This document shows, one piece after another, positions 4,312 to 15,853 of a stretch of 52,603 bases of DNA. Within the stretch, counting starts at the first letter, position 1. Each line of letters starts with the position of its first letter. Where the stretch lies: positions 1 through 52,603 of IMG/VR virus record IMGVR_UViG_3300048121_000820; one strand, given 5' to 3'. Source of the DNA: a virus. Position numbers and translations under genes: made by a program. A model generated the notes under the pieces. The model was not told where the DNA came from. It did no database searches and saw only the letters and a list, made by a program, of their open reading frames with translations.

Positions 4312-4803
4312 ATGAATATCTTTTATTTACACCCGGATCCAGCTAAAGCTGCTGGTTTTTTTTATGAAAAACACAAGGTTAAAATGATCTTAGAGTCAGC
4401 TCAAATGTTATGTACCGCACATCACGTATATAATAATGGCGATAATGTGCCATACAAAAAAGCGCACCTTAATCATCCAAGCACTATATGGGTAAGAGAC
4501 AGTATACACCATTACAATTGGTTGTACGATCACATGCTTGCATTAGGCAAAGAGTATACAGCTAGATACAATAAGCATCACCTTAGTATTGCTAAGTGTC
4601 GTGAAGCTTTAATGTACCCACCATCAGGTATGCCCGATAATGGATTTATCCAACCACCTCAATGTATGCCTGACGAATACAAAGAGCCTAGTAGCTTAAT
4701 AGCTTACTGGAATTATTACGAACAAGAAAAACATAAAGTAAGAAATAAAAATGAGAAGAAAATTATACGTCCATCTAACATCAACGAATTATGCGAATAT
4801 TAA
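4312..4803 (+). CDS. Conserved phage protein (163 aa), NIFYL family
   Basis: A 163-residue protein starting MNIFYLHPDPAKAA, followed by a Lys-Met-Ile-Leu-Glu-Ser-Ala-Gln helix, TAHHVY, NHPSTIWVR and W.Y.YY near the end. I recognise the layout from many marine and T4-like phages, where it is usually unannotated or loosely linked to pyrimidine-dimer glycosylase-like proteins. The conserved His, Asp, Glu and Trp residues suggest an enzyme, but I cannot name the reaction. The two small Cys- and Pro-rich stretches near residues 100-125 have no known role. Confidence 0.65.
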   Translation: MNIFYLHPDPAKAAGFFYEKHKVKMILESAQMLCTAHHVYNNGDNVPYKKAHLNHPSTIWVRDSIHHYNWLYDHMLALGKEYTARYNKHHLSIAKCREALMYPPSGMPDNGFIQPPQCMPDEYKEPSSLIAYWNYYEQEKHKVRNKNEKKIIRPSNINELCEY

Positions 4804-10060: not shown

Positions 10061-10336
10061 ATGCCTAGTATATATGGTAAACGATCCAAGCCAATGCCAA
10101 AATATGTTGCGAGCGAGGAGGAAACAAAATGGGTTTTATATTGTATTAAAAATAATATAAGAATATCCCCGTGGGGCATACAAGGTAACTCAGATAATTG
10201 GCACATAGCCATTAGCTTGGGACCTTATCAAAAATGGGAAAAACCAAATATATCACCAAGCAAATATTGTAGAAATACAATTTGGCCTGAATATTATAAA
10301 ATGTGTAAATACTATTATGACAAATATAGAAAATGA
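10061..10336 (+). CDS. Conserved hypothetical protein (91 aa)
   Basis: A 91-residue protein rich in Trp, Tyr and Lys, with paired motifs NNIRISPWGIQGNSDNWHI, then PYQKW and YYKMCKYYYDKYRK. No catalytic signature or membrane segment is visible. It starts immediately after the primase-helicase stop and overlaps the thymidylate synthase gene by 20 bases, so it is probably co-translated with both. From memory, similar unnamed proteins occur next to replication genes in marine phages. Confidence 0.6.
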   Translation: MPSIYGKRSKPMPKYVASEEETKWVLYCIKNNIRISPWGIQGNSDNWHIAISLGPYQKWEKPNISPSKYCRNTIWPEYYKMCKYYYDKYRK

Positions 10337-11141
10337 ATACAAAGAACTTATATCAGAAATACTCGACAGCGGATTGGATAAGTCGGATAGAACAGGGACT
10401 GGGACGAAGTCTGTCTTCGGGAGAACGATTAGACACGATATGTCACTTGGCTTCCCTATACTTACAGGAAAGAAAATAAGCTTCAATGCAGCAAGAACAG
10501 AATTGCTTTGGATATTACAGGGTAGAACTGATCTTAGGTATTTAGAAGATAATGGTGTTAAGTATTGGAGACCAGATTATAAACGGTCAGGCAGAACAGA
10601 TGAAACATTAGGCCCTGTGTATGGAAAACAGTGGCGTAATTTTAACGGCGTAGATCAGCTTTATAATCTTGCAGAGGATATTAACACTAATCCAGACTCT
10701 AGACGTCTTATAGTTAGCGCATGGGCCCCGCACGAGATGAATGATATGGTTTTGCCTCCGTGCCATTATGCTTTTCAAGTATATATTAATAATGGTGTAA
10801 TGGATTTGATGTGGCAACAAAGATCCGCTGATGTGTTTTTAGGTTTACCTTACGATATTACTATGTATGGTTTACTATTAGAATTGTTAGCTAAAGGTGC
10901 TGATTTAAAACCAGGCAAGCTTATTGGTCAACTTGGTGATTGTCATTTATATAATAATCACTTAGACCAAGCAAAAATATATTTAGATAGATCAAAGAGG
11001 GTGTTGCCTAAGATACAATTAGAAAGAGGAATTAGCGCCAACTTATTAGGAGGTGTAAATATACCTGAAGCTTTTGAAATTAAATTATTAAAATACAATC
11101 CTTATCCCGCTATTAAAGCGGAGCTGAGCGTTGGTAAATAA
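10317..11141 (+). CDS. thyA: Thymidylate synthase family; Asp variant, possible dCMP hydroxymethylase
   Basis: A 274-residue ThyA-family enzyme. Nearly all hallmarks are present: the DRTGTGT phosphate loop (24-30), ELLWILQG with catalytic Glu-62, Trp-84, Arg-129/130, nucleophile Cys-149 in LPPCHYAFQ, and RSADVFLGLP. At residue 180 the sequence is LPYDI instead of the canonical LPFNI. The family's Asn there reads the dUMP base; T4 dCMP hydroxymethylase has Asp, and Asn-to-Asp mutants of thymidylate synthase gain dCMP activity (established). The natural substrate may therefore be dCMP, with a hydroxymethyl or methyl product. Neighbouring MazG-like pyrophosphohydrolases could supply dCMP. It could still act on dUMP. 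Confidence 0.85.
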   Translation: MTNIENEYKELISEILDSGLDKSDRTGTGTKSVFGRTIRHDMSLGFPILTGKKISFNAARTELLWILQGRTDLRYLEDNGVKYWRPDYKRSGRTDETLGPVYGKQWRNFNGVDQLYNLAEDINTNPDSRRLIVSAWAPHEMNDMVLPPCHYAFQVYINNGVMDLMWQQRSADVFLGLPYDITMYGLLLELLAKGADLKPGKLIGQLGDCHLYNNHLDQAKIYLDRSKRVLPKIQLERGISANLLGGVNIPEAFEIKLLKYNPYPAIKAELSVGK

Positions 11142-11149
11142 ATAAAAAT

Positions 11150-11950
11150 ATGTACAACATTTATCACATTCCTGGTAAAAAAATTGGAGTTACACGTAAT
11201 CTTAATAAGAGAGTTACGGAGCAACAAGGTTATGCGCCAGGAGAATACGAAGTTTTATTTACAAGTGATGATATTGATTTAATATCTAACAAAGAAATAG
11301 AACTTCAACAGTCTTATGGCTATAAAAAAGACCGGACATTATATAAAAATTTATTCAAATCAAATATGAAAATAAATCCAACAGAACAAACAAGTACGTT
11401 TCCCGTACCGTTAAATAAACTAAGAGGCAACCTTTACGATAACTTAGGAATAGAATGGGAAACCCCAGAGTTTAAGTTTAAATTACAAAAAGAACATATA
11501 CCCTGGATAATGCAAAATGCTAAAACTTCGATGTATAATAACGATCGAAGCTATATATATAACAAGGCTTTCTATGAGGCCTTTTTTAACCCTGTACACG
11601 ATCCTAACTCAATACCAGATAGATTTGATCTTATAAGATTATGGGCTAAAGATAAAGGTATATACGATAAAGGTAATTCTCATACGCAATATGTTAAGCT
11701 TATGGAAGAAGCTGGAGAGCTAGCGGCTGCTTTACTAAATAAAGACGCGTACGAAATTAAAGACGCTATTGGGGATATGGTTGTAGTGCTTACAAATTTA
11801 GCAGCTTTAGAAGGTATGCAAATTGAAAATTGTATTGATTCAGCATACAATGAAATAGCTAATAGAATTGGTGTAATGCACAACGGAACATTTGTAAAAA
11901 CCGGAATAACTGCTGACCAAGCTACTGATTTATTAAAAGAAATGTTATGA
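11150..11950 (+). CDS. GIY-YIG-like / MazG-like fusion protein
   Basis: A 266-residue two-domain protein. Residues 1-70 look like a GIY-YIG-type fold (YNIYHIP...KIGVT...LNKR, then a Glu-rich helix), with imperfect catalytic residues. Residues 71-175 are a linker with an aromatic segment. Residues 180-250 are a MazG-like all-alpha NTP pyrophosphohydrolase: EEAGE (Glu-186, 187, 190), then E202..D205 and D209, the EExxE...ExxD metal site. The likely reaction is NTP or dNTP to NMP plus PPi. Next to the Asp-variant ThyA, dCTP or dUTP is a plausible substrate (inference). Both family calls are by pattern. Confidence 0.65.
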   Translation: MYNIYHIPGKKIGVTRNLNKRVTEQQGYAPGEYEVLFTSDDIDLISNKEIELQQSYGYKKDRTLYKNLFKSNMKINPTEQTSTFPVPLNKLRGNLYDNLGIEWETPEFKFKLQKEHIPWIMQNAKTSMYNNDRSYIYNKAFYEAFFNPVHDPNSIPDRFDLIRLWAKDKGIYDKGNSHTQYVKLMEEAGELAAALLNKDAYEIKDAIGDMVVVLTNLAALEGMQIENCIDSAYNEIANRIGVMHNGTFVKTGITADQATDLLKEML

Positions 11951-12210
11951 ATAAAAAAGAAATAGAATTTAGAGATCCAGTTGTTGAACGTGTTGTTACT
12001 AAGTTCGTATCAAGATCTGATATAGGCTTTGCAAAATATGGTGTTACTCTTGAAGATGACAAGTCAAATGTATTTACATGGATCAATCATTTGCAAGAAG
12101 AACTAATGGATGCTGTATTGTATCTTCAAAAGTTGAAAGAATCAACAACAGAAGAACTCCAAGAAGCATTATTAAAAAACTACGAAGTTCATGAAGAGGA
12201 GACCTTATAA
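11947..12210 (+). CDS. Small MazG-like protein (87 aa)
   Basis: An 87-residue helical protein. NHLQEELMDAVLYL (47-60) contains an EE..D array (Glu-51, Glu-52, Asp-55) resembling half of an all-alpha NTP pyrophosphohydrolase metal site. RSDIGFAKYGVTL (23-35) is a pattern I associate with small phage relatives of MazG. It overlaps the fusion protein gene by 4 bases and the endonuclease gene by 20. It may act alone as a dimer or with the upstream MazG-like domain. It is shorter than a full MazG, so activity is uncertain. Confidence 0.55.
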   Translation: MNKKEIEFRDPVVERVVTKFVSRSDIGFAKYGVTLEDDKSNVFTWINHLQEELMDAVLYLQKLKESTTEELQEALLKNYEVHEEETL

Positions 12211-12783: not shown

Positions 12784-12922
12784 AATAGAAAAAAGCTGGT
12801 CAGTAAGTATAGGATTATACCCAGGTATATTATTTGGTGTTAGGTCTTATAAAGAAAAAACCTTTACCACTCACGTGTTTTATTTACCATTTGTAGATTT
12901 AGCAATTGAAATAGATAATTAA
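12773..12922 (+). CDS. Conserved small phage protein upstream of nrdB (49 aa)
   Basis: A 49-codon frame from ATG 12773 to TAA 12920-12922. The product has a strand-rich SVSIGLYPGILFGVRSYKE, then THVFYLPFVDLAIEI. I recall a closely similar short protein beside ribonucleotide reductase genes in other marine phages. It is moderately hydrophobic but not clearly membrane-spanning. Its stop shares a base with the nrdB start (TAATG), suggesting coupling. The function is unknown; a small reductase accessory factor is possible. Confidence 0.6.
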   Translation: MENKIEKSWSVSIGLYPGILFGVRSYKEKTFTTHVFYLPFVDLAIEIDN

Positions 12923-13890
12923 TGGGATTATTTGATGAGCGCATTGCGTACAAACCGTTTGAATACCCAGAGTATTACACTGAAGGTTGGTTAAAACAAG
13001 CACAAGCATTTTGGTTGCATACTGAAATCTCAATGCAGAGCGATATTAAAGATTGGAAAGAAAAACTAAATGACAAAGAAAAGAATCTCGTCGGGAACAT
13101 ACTTCTTGGGTTCGCGCAAACCGAATGCGCCGTTTCAGATTACTGGACCCAGAACGTCGTATCGTGGTTTCCTAAACACGAAATACAACAGATGGCAATG
13201 ATGTTTGGCTCGCAAGAGACTGTACATGCTGTGGCTTACAGCTATTTAAATGAAACATTAGGATTAGAAGATTATGAAGCATTTTTACACGAACCAGCAA
13301 CGTCTGAAAGATTTGATAATTTGGTTGCTTATAACGGTAGTGATCCTGTGGGGATTGCGAAAAGCCTGGCTGTATTTTCAGCCTTCGCCGAAGGAGTTAG
13401 TCTGTATAGTGCTTTCGCAGTGCTTTATAGTTTTCAGCTTCGAAATTTACTTAAGGGTATCGGGCAACAAATGAAGTGGTCAGTCAGAGACGAATCATTA
13501 CACAGTAAAATGGGATGTAAACTGTTTCAAGATATGTGCAGTGAAAACAATCAATTACTGAATTTATGTCGAGAAGATATTATAAAAGCTGCTGAAACAA
13601 TGGTTAAGCTAGAATGGCAATATATAGAAAAGATGTTTGAAATGGGAGACATTGAAGGCATAAAGTCTAATGACCTAAAGCACTTCATAAAAAAGAGAGC
13701 AAATGAAAAACTTGTTGAGCTGGGCTACGTTGACTTGGGGAACTATTTCCCGTATGACAAAAACGCAGCGTCTAATCTTGATTGGTTCTATCATCTTACC
13801 GGGGGCGTCACTCATACTGATTTTTTCGCTATTAGACCGACAGATTATAGTAAAGCTAATGAAGGAGAAGATTTTGAAGATATATGGTAA
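12922..13890 (+). CDS. nrdB: Class I ribonucleotide reductase, beta subunit
   Basis: A 322-residue R2 subunit. Metal ligands are in place: Glu-68 (TECAVSDYW), Glu-99 and His-102 (SQETVHAVAYS), Glu-157 (FAEGVSLY), Glu-191 and His-194 (RDESLHS). Tyr-106 sits in the EXXHXXXY position used for the stable radical. The enzyme, with NrdA, reduces ribonucleotides to deoxyribonucleotides for phage DNA synthesis. It precedes a small membrane protein and nrdA on the same strand, the reverse of the common nrdA-nrdB order. Confidence 0.92.
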   Translation: MGLFDERIAYKPFEYPEYYTEGWLKQAQAFWLHTEISMQSDIKDWKEKLNDKEKNLVGNILLGFAQTECAVSDYWTQNVVSWFPKHEIQQMAMMFGSQETVHAVAYSYLNETLGLEDYEAFLHEPATSERFDNLVAYNGSDPVGIAKSLAVFSAFAEGVSLYSAFAVLYSFQLRNLLKGIGQQMKWSVRDESLHSKMGCKLFQDMCSENNQLLNLCREDIIKAAETMVKLEWQYIEKMFEMGDIEGIKSNDLKHFIKKRANEKLVELGYVDLGNYFPYDKNAASNLDWFYHLTGGVTHTDFFAIRPTDYSKANEGEDFEDIW

Positions 13891-14135
13891 CAAAAATAAA
13901 ACTACTTAAGCTTCTTGCTTATACAAACAAATTAACATCATATCAAAAGTTCGCGTCTCGTATAGGTTATATGGGATCCGGTCTTTTGATTGCGGCTCAA
14001 TGGACAATAGACCCGATGCTATACATATTTGGTTTTATATGCGTTGTTATACAAACCTCATCGCGTAAACAATGGAATTTAGTAGCACTTAATATTAATG
14101 GGCTTATAGCCTGGATAACACACTTTATAAGATAA
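13884..14135 (+). CDS. Two-span membrane protein between nrdB and nrdA (83 aa)
   Basis: An 83-residue protein with a basic N-terminus, a long hydrophobic stretch (about residues 28-58, broken by a Pro/Asp turn) and a second hydrophobic helix (about 66-82). It overlaps the end of nrdB by 7 bases and the start of nrdA by 1, so all three should be co-translated. No family recognised. Its place inside a reductase operon is odd for a membrane protein, and nothing in the sequence ties it to the reductase. Confidence 0.6.
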   Translation: MVTKIKLLKLLAYTNKLTSYQKFASRIGYMGSGLLIAAQWTIDPMLYIFGFICVVIQTSSRKQWNLVALNINGLIAWITHFIR

Positions 14136-15853
14136 TGTGGAATGAAAACTGGAAAAAAGGTGAAGATTACCCTGCATGGGGTAATAACGACGTATACAAG
14201 AAAACTATATCCGGGGGATATTTATTTGACGGAGAAACACCTAGAGAAGCATACATGCGCGTCAGTAAAACAGTTGCTCGTAGATTATTCAAACCAGAAA
14301 TGGCAGAAACATTCTTCGAGTATATCTGGAACGGTTGGCTTTGTCTTGCTAGTCCTGTATTATCTAACACCGGTACTGATCGCGGCTTGCCTATTAGCTG
14401 TTTTGGTATCGACGTAGCTGATAGTATACAAGACATAGGACAAAAGAATTTAGAAATGATGCTACTCGCCAAGCACGGCGGTGGAGTTGGTATCGGAGTT
14501 AATCAAATAAGACCCGCTGGCGCTAAAATAACAGGAAATGGAACATCAGACGGAGTTGTCCCTTTTTGTAAAATATATGATTCAACAATACTCGCGACTA
14601 ATCAAGGATCAGTCAGAAGAGGAGCAGCATCGGTTAACATCAATATTGAACACGACGATTTCGAAGAATGGCTTGAAATTAGAGAGCCTAAAGGAGATGT
14701 CAACAGACAATCGCTTAATTTACATCAGTGTGCAGTTGTGGGTGATAAGTTTATGCGACGCCTTGAACAAGGAGATGCGGACGCTAGATCTCGATGGAGT
14801 AAATTACTTAGAAAGCGAAAAGCAACTGGAGAACCGTATATATTATTTAAAGGAAACACTAATAAAGCAAATCCAAAAGCATATAAAGAAAACGGTTTAA
14901 AAGTTCATATGACAAATATATGTTCTGAAATCACATTGCATACTGATGAAAATCATAGTTTTGTTTGTTGTTTATCATCATTAAATTTAGCTAAATATGA
15001 AGAATGGAAAGGTACTAACCTTATATACGACGCTATATGGTTTCTCGATGGCGTTATGGAGGAATTTATTCAAAGAGCAAAAGGACTTAGAGGTTTTGAA
15101 AACGCCGTTCGTTCTGCTACTAAAGGACGAGCACTTGGGTTGGGTGTACTCGGATGGCACACGTATCTCCAAGATAATGGCCTTCCTTTTGAAGGTCTCT
15201 TGGCTCAGTTTGAAACTAGGAAAATATTTTCGCAAATTAAAATTGAAAGTGAAAGAGCTTCCAGAGATCTTGCTGAAATTTATGGCGAACCTTTGTGGTG
15301 TGTTGGTACTGGTATGCGTAATACTCACCTGCGTGCTATTGCTCCCACTGTTAGTAATTCAAAGCTTAGCGGAAACATTTCGCCAGGAATAGAACCCTGG
15401 GCTGCTAATGTATTTACAGAGCAATCCGCTAAAGGCACGTTTATACGTAAAAATCCTACACTTTTAAAATTATTAAGAAAACACAAATTAAATACGAATG
15501 AAATATGGAATAAGATCCTTGCTGATGGAGGTTCGGTTCAGGATATTAACGAGCTTAGTAATATTACTATGGGGCATGATATACCAGCTAAAGAAGTTTT
15601 TAAAACTTTTAAAGAAATAAACCAACTGGAGCTAGTAAATCAAGCTGGCATACGCCAACAATACATAGATCAGTCGGTTAGTTTGAATCTCGCTTTTCCT
15701 AGCGAGGCTACACCTAAGTGGCTTAATAAAGTACATTTTGATGCTTGGAAAAAAGGAGTAAAGACTTTATATTATACGAGAACAGAGAGTGTTCTACGTG
15801 GAGATATTGCACAGCAAGCGATGAGTGAAGATTGTCTTGCGTGTGATGGTTAG
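14135..15853 (+). CDS. nrdA: Class I ribonucleotide reductase, alpha subunit (short)
   Basis: A 572-residue R1 subunit, shorter than the usual 700-760 because the N-terminal ATP-cone is missing, so dATP inhibition should be absent. Core motifs are clear: SPVLSNTG, the first redox Cys in GLPISCFG, AKHGGGVG, SVRRGAASV, the active-site NICSEI, and the C-terminal CLACDG pair that delivers electrons. Together with NrdB it makes dNTP precursors. It ends the rightward arm 16 bases before a strong terminator. Confidence 0.92.
   Translation: MWNENWKKGEDYPAWGNNDVYKKTISGGYLFDGETPREAYMRVSKTVARRLFKPEMAETFFEYIWNGWLCLASPVLSNTGTDRGLPISCFGIDVADSIQDIGQKNLEMMLLAKHGGGVGIGVNQIRPAGAKITGNGTSDGVVPFCKIYDSTILATNQGSVRRGAASVNINIEHDDFEEWLEIREPKGDVNRQSLNLHQCAVVGDKFMRRLEQGDADARSRWSKLLRKRKATGEPYILFKGNTNKANPKAYKENGLKVHMTNICSEITLHTDENHSFVCCLSSLNLAKYEEWKGTNLIYDAIWFLDGVMEEFIQRAKGLRGFENAVRSATKGRALGLGVLGWHTYLQDNGLPFEGLLAQFETRKIFSQIKIESERASRDLAEIYGEPLWCVGTGMRNTHLRAIAPTVSNSKLSGNISPGIEPWAANVFTEQSAKGTFIRKNPTLLKLLRKHKLNTNEIWNKILADGGSVQDINELSNITMGHDIPAKEVFKTFKEINQLELVNQAGIRQQYIDQSVSLNLAFPSEATPKWLNKVHFDAWKKGVKTLYYTRTESVLRGDIAQQAMSEDCLACDG

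Follow-up and report, generated by a model that had tools for sequence, protein, structure and literature searches.

An aspartate-type thymidylate synthase homologue and its neighbours

The window, by which I mean the whole stretch of DNA analysed here, is a virus record of 52,603 bases, and on its plus strand at 10317..11141 lies a ThyA-family gene encoding a protein of 274 amino acids, a predicted dCMP C5-methylase. The protein matches PF00303 across residues 7-272 (Pfam, E=2e-83), the same ORF (10317-11141) is also matched by the PHROG thymidylate synthase family, and the predicted structure (pLDDT 92) finds its best structural matches among thymidylate synthases (TS). The domain is full length and possesses the nucleophile Cys149, the folate-activating Glu62 and the phosphate-binding Arg129/130 expected of the PF00303 superfamily, together with the further catalytic residues Arg25, Ser170, Asp172, His210 and Tyr212. 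Where TS proper has Asn (E. coli Asn177), this protein and its whole clade have Asp, the residue that marks the cytosine-nucleotide branch of the TS family. The codon responsible is an in-frame GAT on the plus strand (10854..10856), within FLGLPYDITMYG, and translation and alignment place the encoded Asp180, the pyrimidine-specificity residue, opposite the Asn of ordinary TS proteins and the Asp of T4 gp42. The original prediction had read GAT at 10854-10856 as giving LPYD, had listed Cys149, Glu62 and Arg129/Arg130 as retained and had placed Asp at the corresponding site of T4 gp42, and on each of these points it holds. The codons for Leu146-Pro-Pro-Cys149-His150 (10752..10766, plus strand) supply both the nucleophile and a Leu three residues before it (Cys-3), which is a TS-type mark according to the alignment and the published signature, the T4 hydroxymethylase having Asp there (PMC6400193).

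The gene sits in a conserved block, as could be seen from a first scan that matched 225 candidate viral stretches, the best 80 of which were examined. The genes given next with coordinates all lie on the plus strand. Directly upstream, and overlapping the TS start, is a 91-aa ORF without a family match (10061..10336) that is present in 78/80 relatives. Directly 3' of the TS is a gene whose C-terminal half resembles MazG/PRA-PH pyrophosphatases (11150..11950; PF01503 2e-5, PF03819 4e-5), making it a candidate dCTPase, and it occupies this position in 79/80 relatives (best 80 of 225). It is followed by an 87-aa ORF (11947..12210) found in 73/80 relatives and matching PHROG families of unknown function, and by the small (12922..13890; PF00268 3e-57) and large (14135..15853; PF02867 1e-92) subunits of ribonucleotide reductase, which serve deoxynucleotide supply. 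The order conserved in the clade is primase/helicase, 91-aa ORF, TS, MazG fusion, 87-aa ORF, DUF1064 gene, nrdB and nrdA, and the portion from primase to nrdB is kept as far as a contig, L084, whose identity is 57%. Both this contig and the near-identical L083, which has the same gene block, are assigned to a single Rickettsiales MAG (MED657), most likely through a binning error.

In the MazG-like protein, the EExxE and ExxD metal-binding motif is represented by E186, E187, E190, D205 and D209, all invariant, and by the nearly invariant E202; for the predicted fold, the matches to MazG structures are weak. In the fusion's N-terminal part (~140 residues, 11150-11600) the sequence is conserved without a family match, and the very start (YxIYHIPGKKIGVTRNL) recalls, by eye, a GIY-YIG-like domain.

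Fixation and ancestry of the aspartate

Asp is found at the specificity site in 81/81 viral loci, that is, in the window and the best 80 of its 225 relatives (64-89% identity), and the LPYD motif runs throughout these 80. The codon is GAT in 72 relatives and GAC in 8, and since both Asp codons are present in the clade, the residue is retained while the codon drifts. When genome contigs of bacteria and archaea were scanned, 80 loci came back, three of which have LPYD (57-81% identity); these are phage contigs binned in MAGs, and they also carry the neighbouring genes of the window phage. The other 77/77 cellular homologues, at no more than 46% identity, have Asn. A sequencing error or pseudogene is ruled out, because the ORF is intact and Asp recurs in all 80 nearest relatives and in the three MAG-binned contigs.

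Asp-type enzymes are also not rare beyond this clade, since a codon-pattern scan for LP[F/Y]D set in a TS context added 34 viral loci. These (L175-L208, at least 34 contigs) have an LP[F/Y]DIASY-like motif in an otherwise canonical TS, several of them with no MazG gene nearby, and the annotated TS of the cultured Microbacterium phage Rollins (L168 1474-2388) combines a VPFD Asp with Leu at Cys-3.

When a TS tree was built with the two motif columns excluded, the Asp-bearing clade was recovered with support of 100/97, nested among ordinary TS proteins, and at least six Asn/Asp changes were required on the tree. The original prediction had looked for a grouping with the dCMP enzymes, and this is not what the best tree gives: there the clade stands apart from the Xp12 group and from T4 gp42, although the very long gp42 branch makes the placement of gp42 itself unsure. 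However, a common Asp clade is still compatible with the AU tests, whether the clade is joined with the Xp12 group (p-AU 0.36) or all Asp rows are forced into one clade (p-AU 0.14), so that an independent origin of the Asp is not secured either. The window group is a new clade within a known kind of enzyme.

Substrate and product

What does such an Asp do? Residue 177 sets the pyrimidine specificity of TS proteins, and the mutants Asn177Asp (E. coli) and Asn229Asp (L. casei) favour dCMP and methylate it to 5-methyl-dCMP (PMC8670742), which bears out the earlier statement that engineered Asn-to-Asp enzymes gain dCMP activity. These mutants have the identical specificity change within a TS-type active site, making the window enzyme, whose activity is predicted, a natural counterpart to the classic one-residue engineering experiment, except that its Asp is natural and clade-fixed and that Phe176 is also changed, to Tyr. 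In T4 the corresponding Asp179 is required for cytosine recognition (PMC6400193), and an Asp is common to MilA, BcmA and T4 gp42 (PMC5175136). When contigs were selected for modified cytosine, most of the viral TS proteins encoded on them had Asp177 (PMC8670742); this MetaGPA set, which includes a coastal sample, resembles the window in combining viral PF00303, Asp177 and a TS accompanied by PF01503, and differs from it in that position 147 is also changed there, whereas the window clade retains His. A further parallel comes from the Xp12-group homologues (DoCa10, Mallos), which share GLPYD and an adjacent MazG-like gene with the window, yet are only ~30% identical, have Asn at Cys-3 and Pro at 147, and lie alongside a dCMP deaminase gene. 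The annotation of the DoCa10 genes rests on their similarity to those of phage Bosa; Bosa and Xp12 belong to one genus (PMC9206674), Xp12 DNA carries 5-methylcytosine (PMC7653180), and the Xp12 relative AXL1 is resistant to most restriction enzymes tested (PMC9206674). Taken together, the mutagenesis, the clade-wide Asp, the Xp12-group motif and the link reported in the literature between Asp177 and viral contigs with modified cytosine make cytosine specificity well supported. Since laboratory work has shown that the Asp change redirects TS from uracil to cytosine nucleotides, this marine virus is probably making 5-methylcytosine building blocks for its own DNA.

The cytosine half of the predicted product, 5-hydroxymethyl- or 5-methyl-dCMP, is supported by the mutagenesis, the clade-wide Asp and the Xp12-group motif; the hydroxymethyl option fares worse. 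It would have water trap the methylene intermediate to give 5-hydroxymethyl-dCMP, as in T4 gp42, with which the window protein indeed shares the PF00303 fold and the specificity-site Asp. The marks of dCMP hydroxymethylases are Asp (or Glu) at Cys-3 and a Ser(Thr)-x-Tyr motif, and the T4 enzyme lacks the C-terminal tail (PMC6400193). None of these T4 features (there Asp at Cys-3, Ser94-x-Tyr96, no tail) is found in the window protein, which has Leu146 at Cys-3 and Pro-Val-Tyr in place of Ser-x-Tyr, and retains Trp84 (= Trp80), Asp172 (= Asp169) and a complete C-terminal tail. At the site of E. coli Trp83, a residue that restricts the entry of solvent, the window protein has Tyr, an apparently clade-wide change that might be taken to favour the water-trapping route, but the same Tyr occurs in the Asn-type T5 TS and the change was dropped as a hydroxymethylase sign. 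A search for TET/JBP homologues, run with no positive control, gave no match and is a further point against this product. Hydroxymethylation is accordingly a rather improbable outcome, while Leu at Cys-3, Pro-Val-Tyr, Trp80 and the full tail point to TS-type hydride transfer, so that methylation is the better reading of the sequence and 5-methyl-dCMP the most likely product. A simple rule would follow for telling a likely methylase (Asp177, Leu143 and a MazG neighbour) from a likely hydroxymethylase (Asp177 and Asp143).

The other reading to be weighed, to which I would give an equally low chance, is that of an ordinary TS tolerating Asp177 and converting dUMP to dTMP for an AT-rich phage. Its overall sequence and fold are indeed TS-like, and His147 (E. 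coli numbering), which is Thr in T4 gp42 and Pro in the Xp12 group, is retained. It is also the sole TS of these phages: 37/37 related records, some of which may be fragments, have a single ThyA and neither a second TS nor ThyX. By contrast, the related circular phage genome MW202828, with a large terminase 63% identical, has a FAD-dependent ThyX in its early region (L310 8958-9632), and neither the window's TS nor its MazG gene turned up a homologue there, which suggests that the ThyX and TS/MazG modules have been exchanged. With ThyX there and none in the clade, the enzyme may stand in for thymidylate synthesis, and the room that this leaves for a thymidylate role is the main limit on confidence in the dCMP methylase reading. 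Against an ordinary TS, however, Asp177 moves the enzyme to dCMP in mutagenesis (PMC8670742), the natural Asp-type members characterized in the literature considered act on cytosine nucleotides, and the Asp is strictly fixed, with no tolerated variation. Least probable of all is a route in which dCMP is methylated for thymidylate supply and the host deaminates 5-methyl-dCMP to dTMP, bypassing dUMP, which would reconcile Asp177 with the MW202828 ThyX and with a clade having no other TS, but of which there is no direct sign, no phage dCMP deaminase being found in 38 records including the window (some may be fragments) and the Xp12-group deaminase gene adjoining the enzyme although Xp12 DNA holds 5-methylcytosine.

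The MazG-like partner and the phage lineage

How closely is the MazG-like gene tied to the Asp? With a homology profile grown from the window's own neighbour, and so clade-seeded and biased, a homologue was found within 3 kb of the TS in 79/80 loci of the clade, 8/8 of the Xp12 group and 18/34 of the other Asp-type viral loci, compared with 1/76 viral and 3/77 cellular loci of the Asn type. After dereplication, the other Asp lineages have it in 11/21 cases versus 0/18 for Asn-type (Fisher p=2e-4, relatedness ignored), and a phylogenetically independent test had one well-supported independent pair and hence no power. The independent Pfam MazG model, PF03819, finds only 6/31 of the records with MazG-like genes beside an Asp-type TS, and it matches in 13/40 Asn-type phage records, far from the TS by contig coordinates, the nearest, at ~3 kb, being below the cut-off. 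PF01503 does co-occur with TS on modified contigs (PMC8670742). The related Elemovirus has the pyrophosphatase with no annotated TS within the 50 kb read, and in INPHARED there are 524 phage records with a match to the MazG-like protein; since members of this family turn up in related phages that have no TS, the neighbourhood is support and not proof, and a dCTPase role is plausible.

The mechanism that I favour, with somewhat better than even confidence, is that the Asp-type TS is a dCMP C5-methylase, that its MazG-like partner is a dCTPase and that 5-methylcytosine enters the phage DNA. With Asp in place of Asn177, the TS scaffold would accept and protonate cytosine rather than uracil, the one-carbon unit of methylene-tetrahydrofolate would be transferred to C5 of dCMP, and hydride transfer would reduce it as in an ordinary TS, yielding 5-methyl-dCMP and dihydrofolate. 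T4 removes dCTP via a phage dCTPase, and in a similar manner the MazG-like enzyme would probably convert dCTP to dCMP, both feeding the methylase and excluding unmodified dCTP from DNA. Host kinases and the host DNA polymerase would complete the incorporation of 5-methylcytosine into phage DNA, where it may protect against restriction. The host is invoked because no family-A DNA polymerase (some records may be fragments) and no cytidylate kinase (PF02224, the only kinase family searched) were found in 38 records including the window; likewise, no DNA polymerase was recognized in the window or its relatives G001, G004 and G023. Genes for primase/helicase, ribonucleotide reductase and recombination are nevertheless present in the phages without a recognized polymerase.

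A flavobacterial host is likely, since the nearest counterparts of the large terminase belong to phages infecting Flavobacterium, Cellulophaga, Tenacibaculum and Maribacter. More tentatively, and as a possibility that I would hold at rather less than even, this could be a widespread aquatic, probably flavobacterial phage lineage that replaces cytosine with 5-methylcytosine by means of an altered, near-canonical TS and a dCTPase, having evolved this separately from T4 and Xp12, with kinases and polymerase supplied by the host. If so, whole-genome 5-methylcytosine would be common in the sea beyond a few phages such as Xp12. If the dCMP methylase reading is right, 5-methylcytosine base replacement would be a common viral strategy, and the annotation "thymidylate synthase" would be wrong in substrate for a whole aquatic viral clade (225 candidate stretches, best 80 examined).

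For the 47-51 kb region, no relatives at the DNA level were found among cultured phages. Several kb are probably missing from the window record. A GroEL-like ORF of ~520 aa is present in relatives L298, L299 (G001) and L301 (G023) and absent from the window; MW202828 and Elemovirus carry ORFs of this type under the annotation GroEL. The early region of the window also contains a pyrimidine-dimer DNA glycosylase-like gene at 4312-4803 (PF03013, E=1e-6).
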